Shown here one piece after another: positions 1-9,856 of a DNA stretch of 36,003 nucleotides (positions are counted from its first letter, which is position 1; the number at the start of each line of letters is the position of its first letter). The position numbers and the translations under genes were made by a program. The notes beneath the pieces are model-generated. The model was given only the letters and a program-made list of their open reading frames with translations, searched no databases and was not told the DNA's origin. Source of the stretch: Faecalibacter macacae (GTDB lineage Bacteria > Bacteroidota > Bacteroidia > Flavobacteriales > Weeksellaceae); NCBI RefSeq assembly GCF_003687725.1, contig NZ_RDOJ01000025.1, positions 1 to 36,003 on the forward strand, in the 5' to 3' direction.

Positions 1-56
1 TTGAGATAAAAAATCGTTCGAAAAAATCGGATGCCCGAAACTGCAATTGCGTATAA
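1..56 (-). mobile_element. Partial fifth gene cassette at the window edge
   Basis: On the minus strand a new cassette begins at position 56 with TTATACGC, directly after the crossover G (complement of C57) of the leftmost attC-like site. It runs off the window, so neither its gene nor its own attC can be seen. It shows that the array continues to the left. No start codon with a convincing reading frame is visible in the 56 bases. Confidence 0.6.
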
Positions 57-243
57 CGAGCCGAGTATTTGCGAAGAACGGGAGAGAAATTGAACGAAGT
101 TCAAGTTCGTACGTTCAAGCAAATTGCTCTTTTCTGAAACTAAATTAGTTTATTGTTTTAAGAAAAGCAATTTTGCGAGCGGAAAAATAAGGGATGAAAG
201 TTTACTTTCAGCCCGTTTTTTCGCAAATACTATGTTATCTGCA
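49..243 (-). repeat. attC-like site of cassette 4
   Basis: Cores lie at C57 (AAC of the R' side) and G234 (GTT of the R'' side), 178 nt from core to core. The outer arms are 64-82 and 212-231 (AGTATTTGCGAAGAACGGG against its near-perfect complement). An inner stem pairs 119-135 with 161-176 and begins GCAA and ends TTGC. Between the stems lie short local hairpins, such as TGAAAG/CTTTCA near 195-210. The layout matches the three other sites, although the sequence is the most divergent of the four. Confidence 0.8.
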
Positions 244-824
244 GGCAAGATTATCCATTAAGATTATCACGAATTATTTTATATTCGTTTTTACGCTCTG
301 ATTTTCTTCTTTCTGATTTTATTTTTTGTTGATATTTTATTTTGTCATCTTTGAAATGCATATTTGATTCAACAAGCCAAGAATTTTGCCTTATCATTAA
401 ACCATTCCAAATACAATCATCGTATCCACAGTTATGTTTAGAATAATCACCAAAATTTCGGTGTTTTATTCTCTTATCTTTTAATATTTTTTGTTGGTTT
501 TCTTTTATGATATTCCATAAATTTTCTTCATCTCCTTTTGTTAAATCTTCACCAATTGTTTTTACTTTTAGATATGTTAATGGATCTTTTATTTGTAAAA
601 AGTCAAACGTTTTTTGGAAATAACTATTAGCAAAGTCTCTTATTTTTAATTTTTGTGAAATTTCTAGCTTTTCATTTTCTAATAAAGAACGATATAATCC
701 AAGAGTATTAAAATCACTATATTTTTTATTGTTTTCAATTATAGACAAATATTCAGAAAACTCTAATTCATTAAATTTTTTTCCAATTTTCATTTGTGCG
801 GATTTTTGGATTGCTTGCAGATAA
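57..824 (-). mobile_element. Integron-like gene cassette 4 (unknown 180-aa protein)
   Basis: A unit of 768 bp between two crossover cores, read on the minus strand from 824 to 57. It starts TTATCTGCAAGCAA. The plus strand at its far attC reads TTATCTGCAGGCAA from 235, so the first 14 bases match at 13 positions and R' and R'' would pair in the excised circle. It holds one gene on the array strand: start codon 31 nt from the cassette start, stop codon about 16 nt before R''. That tight packing is typical of cassettes. No promoter of its own was found. Confidence 0.8.
251..793 (-). CDS. Hypothetical protein, cassette 4
   Basis: A 180-residue, highly charged, probably cytoplasmic protein with no signal peptide or membrane segment. 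I do not recognise a named family. The best-looking conserved block is residues 111-147: it is rich in His, Asn, Cys and Trp, with H120, C122 and C127 close together (HNCGYDDC), followed by WNGLMIRQNSWLVES. The last 30 residues are strongly basic (KSERRKSERKNE), which could suit nucleic-acid binding. It is the sole gene of its cassette, on the array strand, with its start codon 31 nt from the cassette start. No promoter is visible, so it would rely on read-through or on a move to attI. It could be a defence or stress gene, but nothing in the sequence proves that. Confidence 0.75.
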   Translation of the reverse strand: MKIGKKFNELEFSEYLSIIENNKKYSDFNTLGLYRSLLENEKLEISQKLKIRDFANSYFQKTFDFLQIKDPLTYLKVKTIGEDLTKGDEENLWNIIKENQQKILKDKRIKHRNFGDYSKHNCGYDDCIWNGLMIRQNSWLVESNMHFKDDKIKYQQKIKSERRKSERKNEYKIIRDNLNG

Positions 825-1014
825 CGGGCCGCGGCTTGGCGATAGTGGCGGATTAGAAAGCCAATACTTTCAATCTTTCACTAACTTGAGCAACAGCTTT
901 TTATTATTTACTAAATTAACAAAAAAGGAAATATAAAAAGCTGTTGCGACAAAAAATGTACGAACTTTCTATATTTCCCATAACCCGCCATTTCGCCAAA
1001 CCGATGTTAGCGGT
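817..1014 (-). repeat. attC-like site of cassette 3
   Basis: Cores lie at C825 and G1006, 182 nt apart. Outer arms 832-851 and 985-1003 pair (CGGCTTGGCG... with ...CGCCAAACCG), with one extra base in the left arm. The inner stem is a perfect 15-bp pairing of 890-904 with 933-947 (GCAACAGCTTTTTAT). The R'' core contains the stop codon of the nucleotidyltransferase gene. The outer arms are close in sequence to those of the 1930-2127 site. Confidence 0.85.
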
Positions 1015-1937
1015 AGTTTTTTCTTATTTCATGTAGGATTTCTTTCATTTTTGGTTCAATATTTAGTTCGTCAAATAGTTTTTCCGATAAATTTAATGAG
1101 TTTTCAAAAGCTAAAATTATATTTTTAGGATTTAAATCCGATGTTACTGTTTTATACGCAAAATACCAAGTCGTATCAATATCCTTTTCAAGACTTTTAG
1201 TTGGACTTTCCCAATGTTGGGTTTTGTTTGTTCTTGCTCTAATAAGCCAAAGCAAATATTTCTGAACATTTGATAAACTATGATGAGCATGAGCAAATTC
1301 TTCTCGCTTAATTAAGTTGCTTGTTGTCAGTATAACATTCAGTAATGATTGGCTTAGCCACAAAATATTTTCGTCTGTGGTTCTATCAGGGAATTTTACT
1401 TTGATTTGATTTAGCGTTTCCGTTAAAAGTCCGTCTTTGTCAATTAAATTCATTTGGTCAAAATCACTGAACGCAACAATTCCTTCCCACGATTTAATGA
1501 TTTTTATTTCGTCTGTTTTTAAAAAATGAAATTCGCCTCTAATCATATTCTCAAAAATAGCGACTTCACTTCCGTATTCATTAATGAAATATAAAGCGAC
1601 AGGATAAACTTGGTTTACCCATTCTTCAGCCGAAAAGTTTTCTTTGGTTTTTAGAAAGATGTAAAATTCGATGTCAGAATATTTGTCGCCTTCATTTTTA
1701 GTAAATGAACCGTACATAAAAACTGCGGAAACATTTTCGTCTTGTTGAGCTATTGATTTGGTTTTGTTAATCATTTGTAACTGTGTCATTGTTGTAAATT
1801 TTAAATTGTTGATAAATACAAATCATCATAACTTTTGAGAGTAATGATTTATTTCTGTTTTTATTTTTAAACAGTTACTTATAGCTTCATCGGATTGTTT
1901 TTTAGTATTTATGTCGTTTTCGTAAAATTACCGCTAA
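825..1937 (-). mobile_element. Integron-like gene cassette 3 (lincosamide nucleotidyltransferase-like)
   Basis: A unit of 1113 bp read on the minus strand from 1937 to 825. It starts TTAGCGGTAATTTT, and the plus strand at 1007 reads TTAGCGGTAGTTTT (13 of 14 identical), so the two ends would pair in the circle. Its single gene ends inside the R'' core. About 148 nt lie between the cassette start and the start codon, and I see no TAnnTTTG promoter there, so expression probably depends on transcription entering from the integrase side. Confidence 0.82.
1007..1789 (-). CDS. Lincosamide nucleotidyltransferase-like protein (Lnu(B)/Lnu(F) type), cassette 3
   Basis: A 260-residue protein of the nucleotidyltransferase fold. 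The signature G27-S28 followed by D39-x-E41 (MYGSFT...YSDIEFYIF) binds the nucleotide and metal. A second block, NEYGSEVAIFENMIRGEFHF (70-89), matches what I recall of the Lnu(B)/Lnu(F) enzymes, which transfer AMP to lincomycin and clindamycin. Length is close to that group (about 260-273 residues). lnu(F) is itself a known gene cassette of class 1 integrons, so finding a relative here in a chromosomal-type cassette is consistent. The C-terminal half is helical, as in the family. The last Arg codon and the stop codon are supplied by the R'' core of the cassette's attC. The substrate is inferred and could be another hydroxylated drug or a metabolite. Confidence 0.75.
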   Translation of the reverse strand: MTQLQMINKTKSIAQQDENVSAVFMYGSFTKNEGDKYSDIEFYIFLKTKENFSAEEWVNQVYPVALYFINEYGSEVAIFENMIRGEFHFLKTDEIKIIKSWEGIVAFSDFDQMNLIDKDGLLTETLNQIKVKFPDRTTDENILWLSQSLLNVILTTSNLIKREEFAHAHHSLSNVQKYLLWLIRARTNKTQHWESPTKSLEKDIDTTWYFAYKTVTSDLNPKNIILAFENSLNLSEKLFDELNIEPKMKEILHEIRKNYR

Positions 1938-2127
1938 CGTTTCGGGGCTTGGCGTCAGTGGCGGAAATTGAAGCGAAAAGTTTCAATTTAGCGACACAGT
2001 AAGCAAAAGCCAATTAATTGAATAAATTTAAGAAAAAAAGTCAATATAATTGGCTTTTGCGGAATAGAAAGCCGAAACTTTAATTTTAGCCTTAACCCGC
2101 CATTGCGCCAAACCCTTGTTATCTGTC
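1930..2127 (-). repeat. attC-like site of cassette 2
   Basis: Cores lie at C1938 and G2118, 181 nt apart. Outer arms 1945-1964 and 2096-2115 pair (GGGCTTGGCG... with ...CGCCAAACCC) with one extra T in the left arm. The inner stem pairs 2003-2020 with 2042-2060, beginning with 14 perfect pairs (GCAAAAGCCAATTA). Together with short flanks the site fills most of the 405-bp space between the nucleotidyltransferase and methyltransferase genes. Confidence 0.85.
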
Positions 2128-2147
2128 GTTCTTTTTTTCATTTTTAT

Positions 2148-2180
2148 TTTGGTAGATTCAATTTTTTTACATTAAATTTG
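2148..2180 (+). promoter_or_regulatory. Promoter of the cassette-borne methyltransferase
   Basis: TTTG (2148-2151), a 21-bp spacer, then TAAATTTG (2173-2180), a full match to the Bacteroidota -7 consensus. The predicted start near 2187 gives a leader of about 25 nt before ATG 2212. It lies inside the cassette, 29 bp past the R'' core of its attC, so it would travel with the cassette. Confidence 0.6.
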
Positions 2181-2211
2181 TAACCAATGTCTAATGTTGT
2201 ACAATTTGGTT

Positions 2212-3450
2212 ATGAGTGAATATTTAACTATTTCAGAAACAGCGAAGTTACTTAACAAAAGTACTAAAACGCTACGTCGATGGGACGAAGAAGGAAAATT
2301 GTCGGCTGTTCGTGAACCGATGAGCAACTATAGAGTTTATAAAAAAGAAGAAGTTGAAACATTATTTACAGAATTTTTTAATAGTGATGTAAAAGATGAT
2401 GTTTCAAATTTTGTAGAGCCAACTAATGACTATGCAGTATTAGAATTATTTGCTGGTGCTGGTGGTTTGGCTATTGGAATGGAAAAGGCTGGTTTAAAAT
2501 GTGTCGCTTTAAATGAAATTGACAAACACGCTTGTGAAACCTTAAGAAAAAATCGTCCAAATTGGAATGTTTTAGAGGGTGATATTAAAAATTTCAACTT
2601 TTCGGAATATCATAATAAAGTAGATGTTGTAACTGGTGGATTTCCTTGTCAAGCTTTTAGTTATGCAGGTAAAAGATTAGGGCTTGAAGATGCAAGAGGT
2701 ACTTTATTTTACGAATTTGCTCGTGTTGTAAAAGAAGTTAATCCACCAATTTGTATTGGAGAAAATGTAAAAGGTCTATTAAGTCACGATAATGGAAATA
2801 CTCTAAAAGGAATGATTTCTATTTTGGATGAAATTGGCTACTATGTTGTTCCAGTAGAAGTATTAAAAGCGATTAACTACAAAGTTCCACAAAAAAGAGA
2901 GCGATTAATTTTAGTTGGTATTCGTAAGGATATTGATTTGAAATATGAGTATCCAAAACCTTATAAAAAAATCTATAATCTTAAAGATGCTCTTAAAAAA
3001 GGAGAGTTGTTTGATTGCAATGTTCCAATATCTCCAGGTGCGAAATATCCAGAAAGCAAAAAGAGTGTTTTGGATTTAGTTCCGCCAAAAGGATATTGGA
3101 GAGATTTACCTATTGACATTCAAAAAGAATTTATGGGTGCAAGTTTTTATTTAGGTGGTGGAAAAACTGGAATGGCAAGACGGATTGGTTGGGACGAACC
3201 TTGTTTGACTTTAACTTGTAGCCCTGCACAGAAACAAACCGAAAGATGTCATCCAGACGAAACTCGTCCATTTACAGTACGTGAATATGCAAGAATACAA
3301 ACATTTCCAGATGATTGGGAATTTGCTGGTCCTATGGCTCAACAATACAAGCAAATTGGAAATGCTGTTCCTGTAAATTTGGGTTGTGAGGTTGGTTATT
3401 CAATTATAAACTTCTTGAATAAATATTACAACTTATCAAATCCTAAATAA
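2212..3450 (+). CDS. DNA (cytosine-5)-methyltransferase with N-terminal MerR-like HTH
   Basis: A 412-residue m5C methyltransferase. Residues 1-52 form a MerR/excisionase-type helix-turn-helix (LTISETAKLLNKSTKTLRRW). The catalytic part then follows with all main motifs: motif I FAGAGG (80-85), motif IV GGFPCQ with nucleophile C146, motif VI ENV (184-186), motif VIII QKRERL (from 227), motif IX around VREYARIQTFP, and motif X QIGNAVPVN. It should protect host DNA from the neighbouring Eco47II-like endonuclease; that family cuts GGNCC, so the same target is inferred. ATG 2212 is preferred over ATG 2194 because it starts directly at the HTH domain and leaves a short leader after the promoter at 2148-2180. 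It runs against the array direction, and its 3' end overlaps the endonuclease gene by 25 bp. The HTH may let it repress its own gene. Confidence 0.9.
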   Translation: MSEYLTISETAKLLNKSTKTLRRWDEEGKLSAVREPMSNYRVYKKEEVETLFTEFFNSDVKDDVSNFVEPTNDYAVLELFAGAGGLAIGMEKAGLKCVALNEIDKHACETLRKNRPNWNVLEGDIKNFNFSEYHNKVDVVTGGFPCQAFSYAGKRLGLEDARGTLFYEFARVVKEVNPPICIGENVKGLLSHDNGNTLKGMISILDEIGYYVVPVEVLKAINYKVPQKRERLILVGIRKDIDLKYEYPKPYKKIYNLKDALKKGELFDCNVPISPGAKYPESKKSVLDLVPPKGYWRDLPIDIQKEFMGASFYLGGGKTGMARRIGWDEPCLTLTCSPAQKQTERCHPDETRPFTVREYARIQTFPDDWEFAGPMAQQYKQIGNAVPVNLGCEVGYSIINFLNKYYNLSNPK

Positions 3451-4187
3451 TAACTATAATTTTCAAAAGTTATTTGGTCAAGAATAGTACGTTTAGATTT
3501 TTCGGTTTCAGATGAAATTTCATCTAAAGCCGAATTTTCTTTTACGGTTTTATCTTTTTCAATTGATTTTAAATAATCATCAATAGCTTTTGGTAATATT
3601 TTGTATAATTGAAAAAGAGCATTTTCCTCTTTTGTCATTAACTTGTATAGTTCGTCACCAGAAATAATGTAAATTGAAGGATCTTTGTATTTAACCTTTT
3701 TATAAGAAAGTTCCCAATTTTTATTTGTTTTTTTAGTATCAAGTATTCTTGCGTAATATCCTTTTGAACCAGGATTTTTATCAGTTAATTCTTTAAGTTT
3801 AATAAAAATACTTCTAGAATCTTCCCCTTTAACAGTATTAAATTTATTCTTTAGTTCTATAAATATCTTATTATCATTTGATTTTATATCGCATCCTGTG
3901 GGTAATTTTTCGAAATTTTTAATTCCAGATAATATATTTTCGTGAAAAGTACCGATATGATTAGTTATCGTTTTATCCACTTGTCTTATAATTTCATTAT
4001 TTATAAGATCTTCTTCAGAAATTTCATTAAATTTTGAATCAAAGGTTAGCTTAATTACATCAATTTTGTTTTTGTAAAATGTTTCTTTTGTTAGATTTTC
4101 TTTAGCTTTTAAATAAGAATTATATAATATATCAATACATTTTATTAAGTGTTCGTCTGAAATAAAGTTTACGTAGTTATTTGCCAT
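3426..4187 (-). CDS. Eco47II/Sau96I-family type II restriction endonuclease, cassette 2
   Basis: A 253-residue protein. The stretch HIGTFHENILSGI (77-89) followed by D100 and E111-x-K113 (IFIELKNKFNTV) is the hallmark I associate with the Eco47II family of PD-(D/E)XK endonucleases, whose known members cut GGNCC. Length fits the family (about 230-260). Its partner methyltransferase converges on it with a 25-bp overlap, giving a complete type II restriction-modification unit in one cassette. The tail (residues 205-253) is charged and less conserved. I found no TAnnTTTG promoter directly upstream, so methylase-first expression after transfer is plausible because only the methyltransferase has an obvious promoter. 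Confidence 0.8.
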   Translation of the reverse strand: MANNYVNFISDEHLIKCIDILYNSYLKAKENLTKETFYKNKIDVIKLTFDSKFNEISEEDLINNEIIRQVDKTITNHIGTFHENILSGIKNFEKLPTGCDIKSNDNKIFIELKNKFNTVKGEDSRSIFIKLKELTDKNPGSKGYYARILDTKKTNKNWELSYKKVKYKDPSIYIISGDELYKLMTKEENALFQLYKILPKAIDDYLKSIEKDKTVKENSALDEISSETEKSKRTILDQITFENYSYYLGFDKL

Positions 4188-4261
4188 TATGATTATTAAA
4201 ATTTGTTAATGTGCTAAATTATGATTTTTTTTGGTTTTTTGATGGGGATGCATTTAAGAAT

Positions 4262-4462
4262 GACAGATAACGTTTTGGGTATTGCCGAAGGCGGGGAAAT
4301 CAAAGTGCAAATGTTGAGTTCAGCACCGCAGTTAGCAAAACCATTTTTTGTTTGCTAATTTACATTTTTCAAAGCAAATAAAAAATGGTTTTTGCGGAAT
4401 AGAAGTACAAAAGTTGAAGTTTGAACTTTCAGCCCCGCTTTTGGCAATACCTTGTTAGCGGC
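4262..4462 (-). repeat. attC-like site of cassette 1
   Basis: Cores lie at C4271 and G4454, 184 nt apart. Outer arms 4277-4296 and 4433-4451 pair (GGTATTGCC...GCGGGG). The inner stem pairs 4335-4356 with 4373-4395 over about 21 bp (GCAAAACCATTTTTTGTTTG on the left). The bases after the inner stem, TTTGCGGAATAGAA, recur closely in the 1930-2127 site. It fills most of the 405-bp gap between the endonuclease and MBOAT-like genes. Confidence 0.85.
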
Positions 4463-5220
4463 TGGCATTTTGTTTAATTTAAAATATTTTGTTGCGTTAG
4501 TTTATATCGTTCTTTGTGTTATTAAATATCCATAAGTTTTAAAGTAAATTGAATTTCATAATTTCGTTTGTCAACCTTTCATTATTAAATATTTAGATAA
4601 GTTTAGCAATTAGCAAGTCAATAAATCTTGTCAAGATAAAAGTAATAATAAGATAACTCAAATGAAAAATTGGTCGAAACTTTAAGTTAGTTTTTCTAAA
4701 ATTAATTTGAAGGTATTCAGACAATAAAATTCCAATTGAGATTATGAAAAACCAAACTGTAATAAAAGGAAATACAAACTTGATTTCTTTAATCATCATT
4801 GGAATTATATAAATTATATCGTGAGCCAATCCACTTACTATAAAAGTTGCAATCAAAGCTACCCAAGCTGGGAAAATGGTTTTGATTGGTTTATAGCAAT
4901 AAAACAGAAGAAAATATCCCCAAGTTGGATTCCAAAATTTCCAAAATGATTTGAGAGAAGAGGATATAAAAGGTTTAAAAAACATATTTCGAATAACCAC
5001 TGGAATTTTTGTAGAACCTGTTCGATAATATGTATATTCTTCTAAATTCAAAATGTTATTTGTTTTGGTATATTCAGTTAATTGTCTATGAATTACGAAG
5101 TTTTGTCGTTCAAAAGCAAGTCAATAGTAATCCGTTTTAGGTTGTCAAGGGTTGGTCTTTCAAATGTCTTTTGTTGTTATTTCGTTCATTTTACACGGTC
5201 TCGGTTATGCTTGCCGCTAA
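4271..5220 (-). mobile_element. Integron-like gene cassette 1 (first cassette, MBOAT-like protein)
   Basis: A unit of 950 bp, the one next to attI, read on the minus strand from 5220 to 4271. It starts TTAGCGGCAAGCAT, and the plus strand at 4455 reads TTAGCGGCTGGCAT (12 of 14 identical). Its one gene (4593-5051, minus) has a 169-nt leader and 138 nt between stop codon and R''. The leader has no visible promoter of its own. The outward promoter in attI would start transcription within the first bases of this cassette. Confidence 0.8.
4593..5051 (-). CDS. Small MBOAT-like integral membrane protein, cassette 1
   Basis: A 152-residue membrane protein with about four hydrophobic segments. The central part resembles the core of membrane-bound O-acyltransferases of the wax-synthase-like group: an aromatic SFWKFWNPTWGYF stretch (34-46), then about 30 residues later FIVSGLAHD with a conserved-looking His in the position of the MBOAT catalytic His. 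Full-size MBOAT proteins have 350-450 residues, so this would be a minimal or remnant version. The assignment rests on these two motifs only. It is the first cassette after attI and would be the gene most strongly served by the Pc-like promoter. Its role, perhaps acylation of a lipid or surface molecule, is inferred. Confidence 0.7.
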   Translation of the reverse strand: MNLEEYTYYRTGSTKIPVVIRNMFFKPFISSSLKSFWKFWNPTWGYFLLFYCYKPIKTIFPAWVALIATFIVSGLAHDIIYIIPMMIKEIKFVFPFITVWFFIISIGILLSEYLQINFRKTNLKFRPIFHLSYLIITFILTRFIDLLIAKLI

Positions 5221-5359
5221 CACTCAAATATACGAATATATATAATATATACAAATATATTTTAAAAAAACTTAAGTGCTTGTTATTAGATAGGTTAAAA
5301 GAAATTAAGTAACTTTATAAGAATTGAAATAATGTTCGTAAATACAACTTCGGCAATCT
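5221..5359. other. attI-like insertion site and leader between recombinase and first cassette
   Basis: This is the 139 bp between the recombinase start codon and the first cassette. On the minus strand it ends ...TATTTGAGTG and the crossover falls at G|TTAGCGG (C5221 on plus). It has no long inverted repeat like the attC sites, as expected for an attI. It is extremely AT-rich, with runs of TATA around 5235-5262. It is the only place where an unfolded core lies between the recombinase and the array. Together with the 168 bp of cassette 1 upstream of its gene it makes up the 308-bp gene-free stretch 5052-5359. Confidence 0.7.
5225..5255 (-). promoter_or_regulatory. Outward cassette promoter (Pc-like)
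   Basis: On the minus strand a -33 element TTTG (5255-5252) is followed after exactly 19 bp by TATATTTG (5232-5225), a perfect match to the Bacteroidota -7 consensus TAnnTTTG. Transcription should start near 5218, just inside whatever cassette sits at the attI core (5221). This is the position expected of an integron Pc promoter. The assignment rests on consensus match only. Confidence 0.65.
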
Positions 5360-6424
5360 ATGAATATCGATTTTTCTAATTATAAATTTGTAAGTGGTGA
5401 ACACGAAAACAAAAAAGTGATTTGGATTTTATTTGATTATAAAAAATATTCAATTAATCCTTTACGCAAGATAATTAGTGTTAAATATTCAAGGACCCAG
5501 CAAGCTTGGTATGTTTCAGATCATAACAGAAATCGGCAATCTATTGGAATGGATTTAGTTGAATTTAAGAATGCAAATTATTTAAATCATGATCAACGAA
5601 TTGAATTTGATAGATATATTCAAACTTTAAAGCTAAAATCATATAGTCCTAATACGATAAAAACTTATGCGAACGAATTTATTTCATTTCTTCAGATGTT
5701 TAATCAATACAAACCACAAGATATTACAACGGATTTAATACGTCGTTATTTGGTTTATTGTTCACAAGAATTAGAGTTATCCGAGTTTACAATTAATTCG
5801 CGTATGAATGCAATTAAATTTTATTTTGAACAGGTTTTACATCTTAATCGAATGTTTTTTGATATTCCAAGACCTAAAAAACCTATCATTTTACCTAAAG
5901 TTTTATCAATTAATGAAGTAAGGCAAATAATTAATTTGACCAAGAATTTTAAACATCAAATGATTCTAAAATCGATTTACGGAATGGGCTTACGGGTAAG
6001 TGAGGTGGTAAATCTTAAAATAGAAGATTTGGATAGTGATACAATGTTAGTGCATATAAAAGGAGCCAAGGGAAAAAAGGATCGAATTGTTATTTTACCT
6101 GAAACTTTACTTGAAGAATTACGCGAATATTATTTGGAATATAAACCAAAGGATTATTTGTTTGAGAATCGTTTTGGCAATCAAATGAGTACACGAAGTA
6201 TTCAAGTTATTTTTAAAAAAGGATTAGAATTATCTAAATCTCGTAAAAAAGTAGGTGTGCATAGTTTACGTCATTCTTTTGCGACTCATTTGTTAGAGAA
6301 TGGTACTGATGTTACGCTTATTCAGCAGCTTTTAGGACATAATAGTATTAAAACGACATTAACGTATACACATGTTTCAAAAAAGTCGATTCAGAAAATT
6401 CAATCTCCGTTGGATCGTTTATAG
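5360..6424 (+). CDS. Tyrosine recombinase of the integron-like array
   Basis: A 354-residue tyrosine recombinase with the complete catalytic set: R212 (GMGLRVSE), K237 (GAKGKKDR), H301 and R304 (HSLRHSFATH), H327 (LLGHNS) and nucleophile Y336 (TYTHVS). A SAM-like core-binding domain covers about 78-170. Residues 1-75 are an N-terminal extension with the block KYSRTQQAWYVS, of a type common in Bacteroidota recombinases. R-to-Y spacing is 124 residues, XerD-like (131 in E. coli XerD) and far below IntI1 (166), so the IntI-specific insertion is missing, yet the C-terminus ends SPLDRL much like IntI proteins. It diverges from the cassette array exactly as intI does. The last two codons (Leu and stop) overlap the dinB stop codon on the other strand. 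No LexA-like palindrome was seen upstream. Confidence 0.9.
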   Translation: MNIDFSNYKFVSGEHENKKVIWILFDYKKYSINPLRKIISVKYSRTQQAWYVSDHNRNRQSIGMDLVEFKNANYLNHDQRIEFDRYIQTLKLKSYSPNTIKTYANEFISFLQMFNQYKPQDITTDLIRRYLVYCSQELELSEFTINSRMNAIKFYFEQVLHLNRMFFDIPRPKKPIILPKVLSINEVRQIINLTKNFKHQMILKSIYGMGLRVSEVVNLKIEDLDSDTMLVHIKGAKGKKDRIVILPETLLEELREYYLEYKPKDYLFENRFGNQMSTRSIQVIFKKGLELSKSRKKVGVHSLRHSFATHLLENGTDVTLIQQLLGHNSIKTTLTYTHVSKKSIQKIQSPLDRL

Positions 6425-7519: not shown

Positions 7520-9814
7520 TTATTTTAAATTATAGTGTTTTATAAATTGTTTCAATTTCTTTTTATCTGCAACAATAGTTAAATAATCTCCAGGTTCTAC
7601 AATAACATCACGATCCGGATTGTAGCTAATTTCTCCATTTCGTTCCAATGAAACAACAATACCCAAACAAGCATCTTTAATCCAACCTATATCTTGATAT
7701 TGAATTTCGGGCACATTGTCCGGAATTACAACTTTATCCATTGTAATGTTGATGTGATCTTTGCTATCTTCTGTTGAAGTAGGTACAGATTCGCCAATGA
7801 TTTTTAAATAATTTTCAAATTTCTGAATCTGTTCATCAGTTCCAATAATTCCAATTTCGTCTAATGGATATAAAACAGATTCACTGTTTGGCATTTGTAT
7901 AATTCGGTCGCCGCGCTTAATGTATGCAATATTGATATGGAATTTCGTACGCCAATTTAATTCGCCCAATGGAACACCAATAAAGTTTGCGTGTTGTGGT
8001 ACTTGCATGTCAGAAATATGTGTATTATCCCATGTATATTGATAGTTTTCTTTTTTAGCTTGAAGCTTTTTTTCTTCAAGAATTTCACGTTCATTCAAAT
8101 TAAAAATAAATCGATTCTGGATGATATCATATACTTTATTAAAATGTTTTGATAAGAAATAAAGAATACCTAATAATAATACAATTGGAATAATTACTGC
8201 GATTTTACTTGAGAAAAATTGGTAATAAATAAAGATAATTAAACCTAAAATAAATATTAATCTTAAAGTGAAAATCCCGATAATTGGCGCACGATTAAAT
8301 TTAGATTCGTGCCAGAATTGTGAGACTAATGTTTTAGAGACTTTGTTACCTACTAATGCCCAAAGGAAAGGTGCAGAAATAGTTAATGTGATAATCATAG
8401 TAATGAAATTAGCTTGAAAAAAACTTACATTATCATACAATAACATCAATAGATAATTTTTTGTAAAAGCTGTAATAGCAACAATAATAATCGTATTTAA
8501 AGCTAAATTTTTAATTGTTTTTTCGATGATGATTTTCCACTGATTTTCATCTTTGATGTGTTGTGTATCTGATGAATATCTGTCAATTGTCTGAAGGAAT
8601 TTTTCTGGCAGATTTTTATTTAAAAATTGATAAACAGGTTCGGAAGATTTAATTAAATATGGAGTTGTAAATGTTGTAATAGCAGATACACCAACGGCAA
8701 CTGGGAAAAGGAAATCACTAGTTACACCTAATGATAATCCTAAGCCTGCAACGATAAATGCAAATTCGCCAATTTGTGCCATACTCATTCCAACTTGTAC
8801 TGATTGTTTTAAAGGTTGTCCCGATAATAAAGCACCAAGCGAGGTAAAGAGTAGTTTTCCGAAAATCGTTAAAAATGTAACAATTAAAATAGCCCATTTA
8901 TGTTCCATCATCGAAGCTGGATCGATCATCATACCGATAGATACAAAAAAAATTGTAGCAAATAGTGTTTTTACAGATTGTAAAGTATGTTCAATTTTTT
9001 CAGCATAAACCGTTTCTGCTAAAATAGATCCCATTACAAAAGCTCCTAATTCTATAGAAAAACCAACACTATCAGCTATATAAACCATACCTAAACATAA
9101 TCCGATAGAAAGTATTAGTAAGGTTTCTTCGTCTAAATATTTTTTGATTGAACGTAAAAAAGATGGAATAATGAAAATTCCGCCCAAGAACCATACAGCT
9201 AAAAAGAATCCAAGCTTTACTAAAGAACTTAGCATTTGACCACCGTCAAATTGTTGGCTAACTGCCATTGTAGATAACATTACCATTAATAAAATAACAA
9301 CAATATCTTCTACAATTAAGATTCCGAAGACGACGTTAGCAAACTTTTTTCGTTTCAAACCTAACTCGTCAAACGCTCTAATAATAATGGTTGTAGATGA
9401 ACTGGCTAATAATCCACCAAGAAAAATACTATCCATAGTTTTCCAACCCATCCATTGTCCTACAAAGTAACCAAGAGTTACAATACAAGCAATCTCGACG
9501 AGGGCTGTAATGGATGCACTTCCACCAACATTGAGTAATTTTTTGAAACTGAATTCTAATCCTAAACTAAATAATAGGAAAATAACACCAATTTTTGCCC
9601 ATATTTCAACGTTATGCTCATCGGCAACATTAGGGATGTATTGAAAGTGCGGACCAACTAAAAATCCTGCGATAATATAACCCAACACTAATGGCTGGTT
9701 AATTCTTTTAAAAATTAAAGTGGTAATTGCTCCTACACCTAAAATTAGGCCTAAATCGACGATCAGTTTTGGCAAGTGTTCTTCCATAAATGTATTGGTT
9801 GGATATTTTGTCAC
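7520..9814 (-). CDS. CPA2 family monovalent cation/proton antiporter
   Basis: A 764-residue inner-membrane antiporter. Residues about 10-390 form the Na+/H+ exchanger domain with some 12 membrane helices (INQPLVLGYIIAGFLVGP, VIFLLFSLGLEFS, FGILIVEDIVVILL). A second hydrophobic block (about 430-560) follows, then two cytoplasmic TrkA-C (RCK_C) domains near 605-680 and 690-764. No TrkA-N Rossmann domain is present, unlike KefB/KefC. It likely exchanges K+ or Na+ for H+ and contributes to pH and salt balance; the ion cannot be told from sequence. ATG 9787 (MEEHLPK) is a possible alternative start that would better match the family's usual beginning (MxHLPxLI). Confidence 0.88.
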   Translation of the reverse strand: MTKYPTNTFMEEHLPKLIVDLGLILGVGAITTLIFKRINQPLVLGYIIAGFLVGPHFQYIPNVADEHNVEIWAKIGVIFLLFSLGLEFSFKKLLNVGGSASITALVEIACIVTLGYFVGQWMGWKTMDSIFLGGLLASSSTTIIIRAFDELGLKRKKFANVVFGILIVEDIVVILLMVMLSTMAVSQQFDGGQMLSSLVKLGFFLAVWFLGGIFIIPSFLRSIKKYLDEETLLILSIGLCLGMVYIADSVGFSIELGAFVMGSILAETVYAEKIEHTLQSVKTLFATIFFVSIGMMIDPASMMEHKWAILIVTFLTIFGKLLFTSLGALLSGQPLKQSVQVGMSMAQIGEFAFIVAGLGLSLGVTSDFLFPVAVGVSAITTFTTPYLIKSSEPVYQFLNKNLPEKFLQTIDRYSSDTQHIKDENQWKIIIEKTIKNLALNTIIIVAITAFTKNYLLMLLYDNVSFFQANFITMIITLTISAPFLWALVGNKVSKTLVSQFWHESKFNRAPIIGIFTLRLIFILGLIIFIYYQFFSSKIAVIIPIVLLLGILYFLSKHFNKVYDIIQNRFIFNLNEREILEEKKLQAKKENYQYTWDNTHISDMQVPQHANFIGVPLGELNWRTKFHINIAYIKRGDRIIQMPNSESVLYPLDEIGIIGTDEQIQKFENYLKIIGESVPTSTEDSKDHINITMDKVVIPDNVPEIQYQDIGWIKDACLGIVVSLERNGEISYNPDRDVIVEPGDYLTIVADKKKLKQFIKHYNLK

Positions 9815-9856
9815 TAAAATAAGAATTATTCTTTTGACAAATGGTATGTTGTAGGT

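Follow-up and report, generated by a model that had tools for sequence, protein, structure and literature searches.

The first 6,424 nt of a 36,003 nt stretch of Faecalibacter macacae DNA (Bacteroidota; Flavobacteriales; Weeksellaceae; NCBI RefSeq assembly GCF_003687725.1, contig NZ_RDOJ01000025.1, positions 1 to 36,003; hereafter the window, i.e. the whole stretch analysed) carry a gene for a XerA-like tyrosine recombinase flanked on its left by an array of gene cassettes and on its right by dinB. Following the minus strand away from the recombinase, one meets TTTG-N19-TATATTTG-AGTG^TTAGCGGC (the caret marking a G|TT cut), then four complete cassettes and the opening bases of a fifth, at which point the contig ends within the array. 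Each cassette closes with a folded site of ∼200 nt. An initial annotation had described this region as an integron-like system with a tyrosine recombinase, an attI-like core beside it, and folded sites between at least four cassettes; all of these were recovered, and the system proved larger than had been noted. The recombinase and cassette open reading frames (ORFs) were searched against Pfam and NCBIfam, and attC sites were called as folded sites with a covariance model, giving the following features:

5360..6424, plus strand: XerA-like tyrosine recombinase, 354 aa (Phage_integrase and SAM-like domains by Pfam/NCBIfam, invariant catalytic residues, motif spacing)
5225..5255, minus strand: promoter-like TTTG-N19-TATATTTG, pointing into the cassettes (from sequence)
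5211..5232, minus strand: attI-like site TATATTTGAGTG^TTAGCGGC, G|TT cut between 5221 and 5220, TATATTTG just ahead of the core
4271..5220, minus strand: cassette 1, ORF 4593-5051, MBOAT-like fragment (match below cut-off)
4259..4465, minus strand: attC of cassette 1 (site D)
1938..4270, minus strand: cassette 2, Eco47II-type endonuclease 3426-4187 (minus) and C5 methyltransferase 2194-3450 (plus)
1926..2129, minus strand: attC of cassette 2 (site C)
825..1937, minus strand: cassette 3, lnu(H) lincosamide nucleotidyltransferase 1007-1789
813..1017, minus strand: attC of cassette 3 (site B)
57..824, minus strand: cassette 4, ORF 251-793, family unassigned
45..245, minus strand: attC of cassette 4 (site A)
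1..56, minus strand: start of cassette 5, truncated at the contig end

The attI-like motif recurs beyond the window: 28 of 48 recombinases (a count that leaves out loci L143 and L144) have TATATTTG-N(1-4)-GTT in the 700 bp ahead of them, vs. 0.4% of shuffled stretches, and recombinase, attI motif and array occur together in many loci of several genera. The outward promoter annotated at this core stood as a promoter-like box, while its function as a promoter is only predicted; TTTG/TAnnTTTG is the Bacteroidota -33/-7 promoter consensus. Layouts vary. The 43% recombinases of genomes G010 and G011 diverge from their sites like that of the window; sites lie downstream and co-oriented in loci L101-L104 and L150 (a looser, 40% group of relatives) and in L163, L165, L169 and L175, and likewise downstream on the recombinase strand in the window-type rows L047, L143 and L144. 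The attI motif opens the array in the Riemerella-like genomes G063 and G086 (L117:13487 and L121:10927), and in G076 a single site follows the recombinase at ∼460 bp, the remainder being elsewhere. Across 199 inter-site intervals, the longest ORF was on the array strand in 177 and on the opposite strand in 14, the other 8 having no ORF of 50 aa.

Cassette contents in the window are as unrelated as first described, and the enzyme annotated as of drug-modifying type is the lnu(H) product, which scored 555 bits with NF040958 (cut-off 540). The cassette 4 ORF had no Pfam or NCBIfam match; in the sister genome, the cassette in first position (L011:15202-15744) is an evident homologue on visual comparison. 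The cassette 2 methyltransferase has an N-terminal MerR-like helix-turn-helix, and its transcription opposes the array. An Rfam scan of the window returned nothing at the gathering threshold nor at E≤1.

Folded attC sites and their distribution

Ad hoc palindrome scans were superseded by two covariance models, R1, built from 21 sites (13 from the sister genome G001, four from the window), and R2, built from 139 sites. The window's four sites score 150–194 bits with R1, but belong to its training set. A model built from the system's own sites had been suggested in the initial annotation as a check, and R1 found sites beyond those used for training, with 44 in G001 and 52 in the window's genome. 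As to the link with a recombinase, 25 of 43 loci, most of them chosen for their recombinase and several ending soon after the gene, hold at least one site at E≤0.1. Within a locus, nearly all sites lie on a single strand.

The attC fold is conserved as an imperfect hairpin with compensatory changes. Among 139 sites (131 distinct), 92.3% of cells were paired, vs. 66.7% after shuffling and 37–45% when slid, and 13 of 14 pairs showed change on both sides (shuffled mean 10.4), both counts coming from an alignment fitted to the model, which favours pairing. In 103 of 120 sites drawn at random from 273, the more stable fold is that of the bottom strand, on which the genes do not lie. In IntI integrons the attC R boxes are RYYYAAC and GTTRRRY. 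These rarely fit the present sites (6 of 242 and 12 of 235 for GTTRRRY and RYYYAAC, respectively), in which the R' box is CGTT-R-NNN-G, with GTTRNNNG fitting 228 of 242. Counting from GTT, base 11 is A in cassette starts (0.99) and mostly G in the complement of R'' (0.90), a near-constant mismatch (alignments A2/A3) at the end of the R helix.

All 14 genomes of the genus hold at least one site by R1, with 52 in the window's genome, spread over several contigs, and 44 in G001. All 39 sites listed for G001 are minus-strand sites and form two blocks, 1980954-1987398 and 2016542-2042694, the latter adjoining the same recombinase at 2043425. Two genus members with no such recombinase at E≤1e-40, G003 and G005, hold 1 and 4 sites, and the other twelve hold 4–52. 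Riemerella-like genomes hold 60 (G063, including copies in duplicated contig ends), 83 (G076) and 44 (G086). The ends of contig G063:C1 (L117, L118) overlap, with 413 of 413 compared bases identical and sites recurring at an offset of 2,154,087, so that ∼10,000 bp look duplicated. Further afield, R2 found nothing in any of 10 hand-picked genomes that share the window's Genome Taxonomy Database (GTDB) phylum but not its class, and gave hits in 6 of 10 genomes inside that class, some as one-strand clusters (e.g. G302). Overall, the window's family has arrays that are tens of cassettes long, with further clusters in other Bacteroidia families, and some genomes carry scattered sites.

Cassette ends and cassette exchange

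In an integron, the bases that follow G|TT at the start of a cassette are part of that cassette, and in the circular form they pair with its own R''. In window cassettes 2, 3 and 4 the first 10 bases (GTT counted) match the cassette's own R'', not the box after its own site, and cassette 1, which begins GTTAGCGGC at attI, matches its own R'' at 9 bases. Over 142 cassettes from 39 loci, own R'' and own start agreed at a mean of 6.57 of 7 variable positions vs. 3.30 in an in-situ control (101 cassettes matched at 7, 30 at 6, 8 at 5, one at 4 and two at 1). An earlier subset of 75 cassettes below 1 kb, from 26 of 45 loci (loci with hits at E≤1e-4), gave 6.73 of 7, vs. 3.37 in situ and 3.50 for random starts. 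Sites with unplaceable cores, intervals beyond the length limits and overlapping calls were excluded from these counts. Judged from the sequences, such end matching is the signature of a cassette that was inserted as a circle opened at G|TT.

Breaks between otherwise shared DNA fall at the same point. Six genomes (G017, G039, G044, G097, G126 and G163; six species, five genus codes) carry recombinase DNA that is 100% identical (99.91% in G039), share at least 198 bp onward to TATATTTGAGTG^TT, and then continue into four different first cassettes, with the break at G|TT, the position of the attI cut in the window. The first cassette is common to G017, G126 and G039; it is a lnu(I) cassette of 1051 bp that also lies, at 99.9% identity, between attC sites on the Riemerella anatipestifer plasmid pRCAD0416RA-1. 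Beside one copy of the shared platform, two near-identical transposase-like genes flank a dihydropteroate synthase-like gene (L061:355-2652; names from translations, by eye), an arrangement suggestive of a composite element by which the platform could be mobilized.

More widely, the same cassettes occur in different arrays, species and plasmids. From 219 cassettes, 72 pairs were at least 90% identical over at least 90% of their length, of which 64 had at least one unlike neighbour and 45 had both unlike. In these 45 pairs, which were selected for unlike flanks (flank identity <0.7) and are not independent (the same cassette in several loci, some duplicates inside one array), the 30 bases inside the two edges were 0.97/0.86 identical and the 30 outside 0.44/0.41. 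The cassette differences between related genomes that the initial annotation had proposed to look for were seen, with edges at G|TT, the crossover between G and TT being exact only within the shared GTT. One array holds an exact duplicate of a cassette (L011:7247-7579 and 9508-9840; 553 bp, 100%).

The recombinase and alternative readings

The window recombinase narrowly missed the XerA-type model NF040815 (214.5 bits, cut-off 220) and fell below those for XerC (193 vs. 335) and XerD (180.5 vs. 329.6). Residues R212, H301, R304 and Y336 are invariant in a 37-row alignment. The nearest solved sequences and folds are those of XerA, the archaeal Xer (PDB 5HXY, 4A8E); an AlphaFold model (mean predicted local distance difference test, pLDDT, 82; predicted template modelling score, pTM, 0.50) placed XerA, archaeal Xer and IntI4 nearest. 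Unlike XerA/NF040815 proteins, the window recombinase has an N-terminal extension of ∼80 residues and is linked to an attI and a cassette array.

Relatives at E≤1e-60 were found in 6 of 14 genomes of the genus and 85 of 296 of the family, counts that include the window's genome and, for the family, the 40% group; at E≤1e-70 they were found in 13 of 395 genomes of the phylum, three of these at E≤1e-100. Of the eight genus members that have no close relative, six have a 40–46% one, and G003 and G005 have none. Named relatives on 18 contigs belong to Flavobacteriia, Chitinophagales, Sphingobacteriaceae, Cytophagales, Bacteroidales and unplaced Bacteroidota. When plasmids were searched with the shared recombinase DNA, three records were returned, covered to at most 10%; tblastn against plasmids returned 303 records, and among the best 40 listed all were below 60% identity, the top one having 42% over most of the protein (Chryseobacterium).

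We put the probability that the system is a chromosomal integron, belonging to a class that occurs in Bacteroidia, at about 0.92. The support read from sequence consists of one-orientation arrays, mostly one gene per cassette, conserved site structure, G|TT boundaries, circle-type ends and shared cassettes. The working mode is integron-like, yet this is not an IntI integron. The recombinase would capture circular cassettes by recombining attI, or an attC in the array, with the folded attC of the cassette; the cut would fall between G and TT, attI would carry its own outward promoter-like box, and recombination between two attC sites would excise a circle. We infer that the recombinase catalyses cassette cutting, with the folded bottom strand as its probable substrate, and that the attI box may drive cassette expression.

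The features shared with IntI integrons are many: a divergent tyrosine recombinase, a one-strand array, an attI, folded attC sites with a stabler bottom strand, G|TT, mostly single-gene cassettes, resistance cargo, long arrays and forms common to several genera. One rival reading is a canonical IntI integron acquired from another group: the integron integrase model TIGR02249 does match the recombinase at 185.5 bits, the C-terminal end of the recombinase aligns with that of IntI4, and other parts of the GTDB phylum often have a true IntI above the TIGR02249 cut-off (84 of 296 genomes). This is nevertheless very improbable. The score lies under the 265-bit cut-off, and IntI4 residues 182-243 are unmatched in the window recombinase in the HMMER alignment. 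The segment between the KKDR and HxLRHS motifs, as measured on the alignment, is 58 residues long in all 31 window-type rows vs. 100 in 8 of 8 IntI rows (8 of the 20 IntI loci fetched), with 58–59 in three rows of the 40% group, 58–79 in 18 other XerA-like rows and 62–68 in 8 Xer rows. Quick trees give IntI its own clade, with the window type in another (split support 80–91, unstarred), and GTTRRRY fits few R' boxes, as given above. New-type attI sites moreover adjoin the TATATTTG box, and some relatives have the array downstream and co-oriented. With the IntI extra domain and the canonical R box both absent, the separate integron lineage inferred in the initial annotation fits the data. In the window's class, the only true IntI in our sample is G331:C40:3592-4530.

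Alternatively, the arrays could be real and of integron type but have their cassettes moved by XerC/XerD or some other recombinase, the adjacent one serving a different role. Xer proteins are present in the same genomes, and in Riemerella-like genomes the recombinase lies in trans; we nonetheless regard this as unlikely, given that recombinase, attI motif and array stand together in many loci of several genera and that the two genus members with no such recombinase hold 1 and 4 sites, the others 4–52. That the sites are palindromic repeats of REP or MITE type, or terminators, separating unrelated genes in a fixed island is scarcely credible: they are long palindromes and some are scattered, but array breaks and shared cassettes have their edges at G|TT, ends match in the circle-type manner, and each array keeps a single orientation. 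The initial annotation had named two contrary outcomes, a fixed block of genes and repeats unlinked to any recombinase. Neither was seen, although the Riemerella-like arrays, away from the recombinase, and the scattered sites of some genomes qualify this.

Several observations weigh against an integron worked by this recombinase. The same genomes encode Xer proteins, and the link between recombinase and reaction rests on sequence. No strict attI motif was found at 20 of 48 recombinase loci, and R1 found no site in 18 of 43 loci and failed to recover its own training site L015. In G063 and G086 the main array and attI lie away from the sole recombinase of the type, which is at position 510 kb in G063 and ∼23 kb beyond the main block in G086. 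Some genomes hold sites and no close relative of the recombinase, and G005, with no recombinase, has four sites, as many as G007, which has one. Two of the 142 cassettes match their own R'' at just 1 of 7 positions, and some shared cassettes diverge ahead of the 3' edge (last 30 bases 0.17–0.5 identical), as after attC exchange or change.

With respect to descent, an origin independent of IntI was at first favoured on the trees and an approximately unbiased (AU) test, in which forcing IntI and the window type together cost 37 log units (p-AU 0.049, marginal). It was later weakened because several XerA-like outgroup recombinases proved to adjoin new-type sites themselves, and common ancestry with IntI is as possible as independent origin. 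The extra domain of IntI, near patch III, is held to be necessary for attC recombination. We consider it likely that XerA-like recombinases that have no such domain provide, in many Bacteroidia, a second enzymatic basis of integron-type capture; they would either have arisen independently or form an older and broader clade of which IntI is a domain-bearing offshoot.

Passages of PMC8618304 report integrons for Bacteroidota, and passages of the IntegronFinder 2.0 survey name one complete integron in Bacteroidetes proper (Salinibacter ruber) and state that the extra domain distinguishes IntI from other recombinases. No description of the present class was found among the titles and abstract openings listed by searches of the open-access PMC literature, preprints aside. 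The system has probably been overlooked because its integrase profile and its attC consensus both differ.

Cargo and gene uptake in Riemerella anatipestifer

Among 147 cassette proteins, the commonest Pfam families (25 of 84 families listed) were Porph_ging, of unassigned function (7), Adenyl_transf (6) and GNAT (4), followed by penicillin-binding transpeptidase type, LinB-like and PIN (3 each), with Cass2 ('integron-associated effector binding protein') and RelE-like Gp49 represented by 2 each. A defence library matched an oligonucleotide cyclase and restriction-modification genes, one member each. On R. anatipestifer and Empedobacter plasmids (L079, L080), tet(X), OXA, EstT, APH and lnu genes lie beside new-type attC sites. 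These stretches (L079 being 13 of the 37 kb of its plasmid) had no tblastn match to the window recombinase at E≤1e-20, and thereby resemble the clusters of attC sites lacking integrase known as CALIN, but their attC sites are of the new type.

Passages of a 2026 paper (PMC13148043) report that the chromosome of R. anatipestifer ATCC 11845 gained aph(3')-IVb in the absence of homologous flanks; the gene brought along 27 bp of leading and 140 bp of trailing sequence, the tail being likened to an attC; according to the same passages, a screen of 100 kb around the insertion found no mobile element, integrons included. On pRCAD0416RA-1, the predicted G|TT cuts give 28 and 139 bp around aph(3')-IVb, a total of 167 as in those passages. 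The uptake thus resembles cassette insertion in its attC-like 3' end and in the length of the inserted segment, which equals that of the predicted cassette; it differs in that the passages name no integrase, array or attI. According to a figure legend of that paper, the genes at the insertion site are relE, hthR and cdf. The attC at L118:2866-3009 of G063 has RelE-like and helix-turn-helix (HTH) genes on one side and a cation efflux gene on the other. G063 is likely R. anatipestifer ATCC 11845, as judged in part from a 98% identical relE/HTH cassette and from gene order. A second RelE-like/HTH pair in its array has no cation efflux gene adjoining. The new-type system would offer a mechanism for this unexplained, homology-free uptake of a resistance gene.

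Five genera carry a near-identical platform, and some of them have lnu(I) and tet(X)-like cassettes with it. If the proposed second basis of capture is true, the IntI extra domain would not be required for attC recombination, and tet(X), lnu(H), lnu(I), OXA and aph(3')-IVb would move as cassettes of an overlooked system. The system makes it testable how a recombinase that has no IntI domain could use a folded attC.

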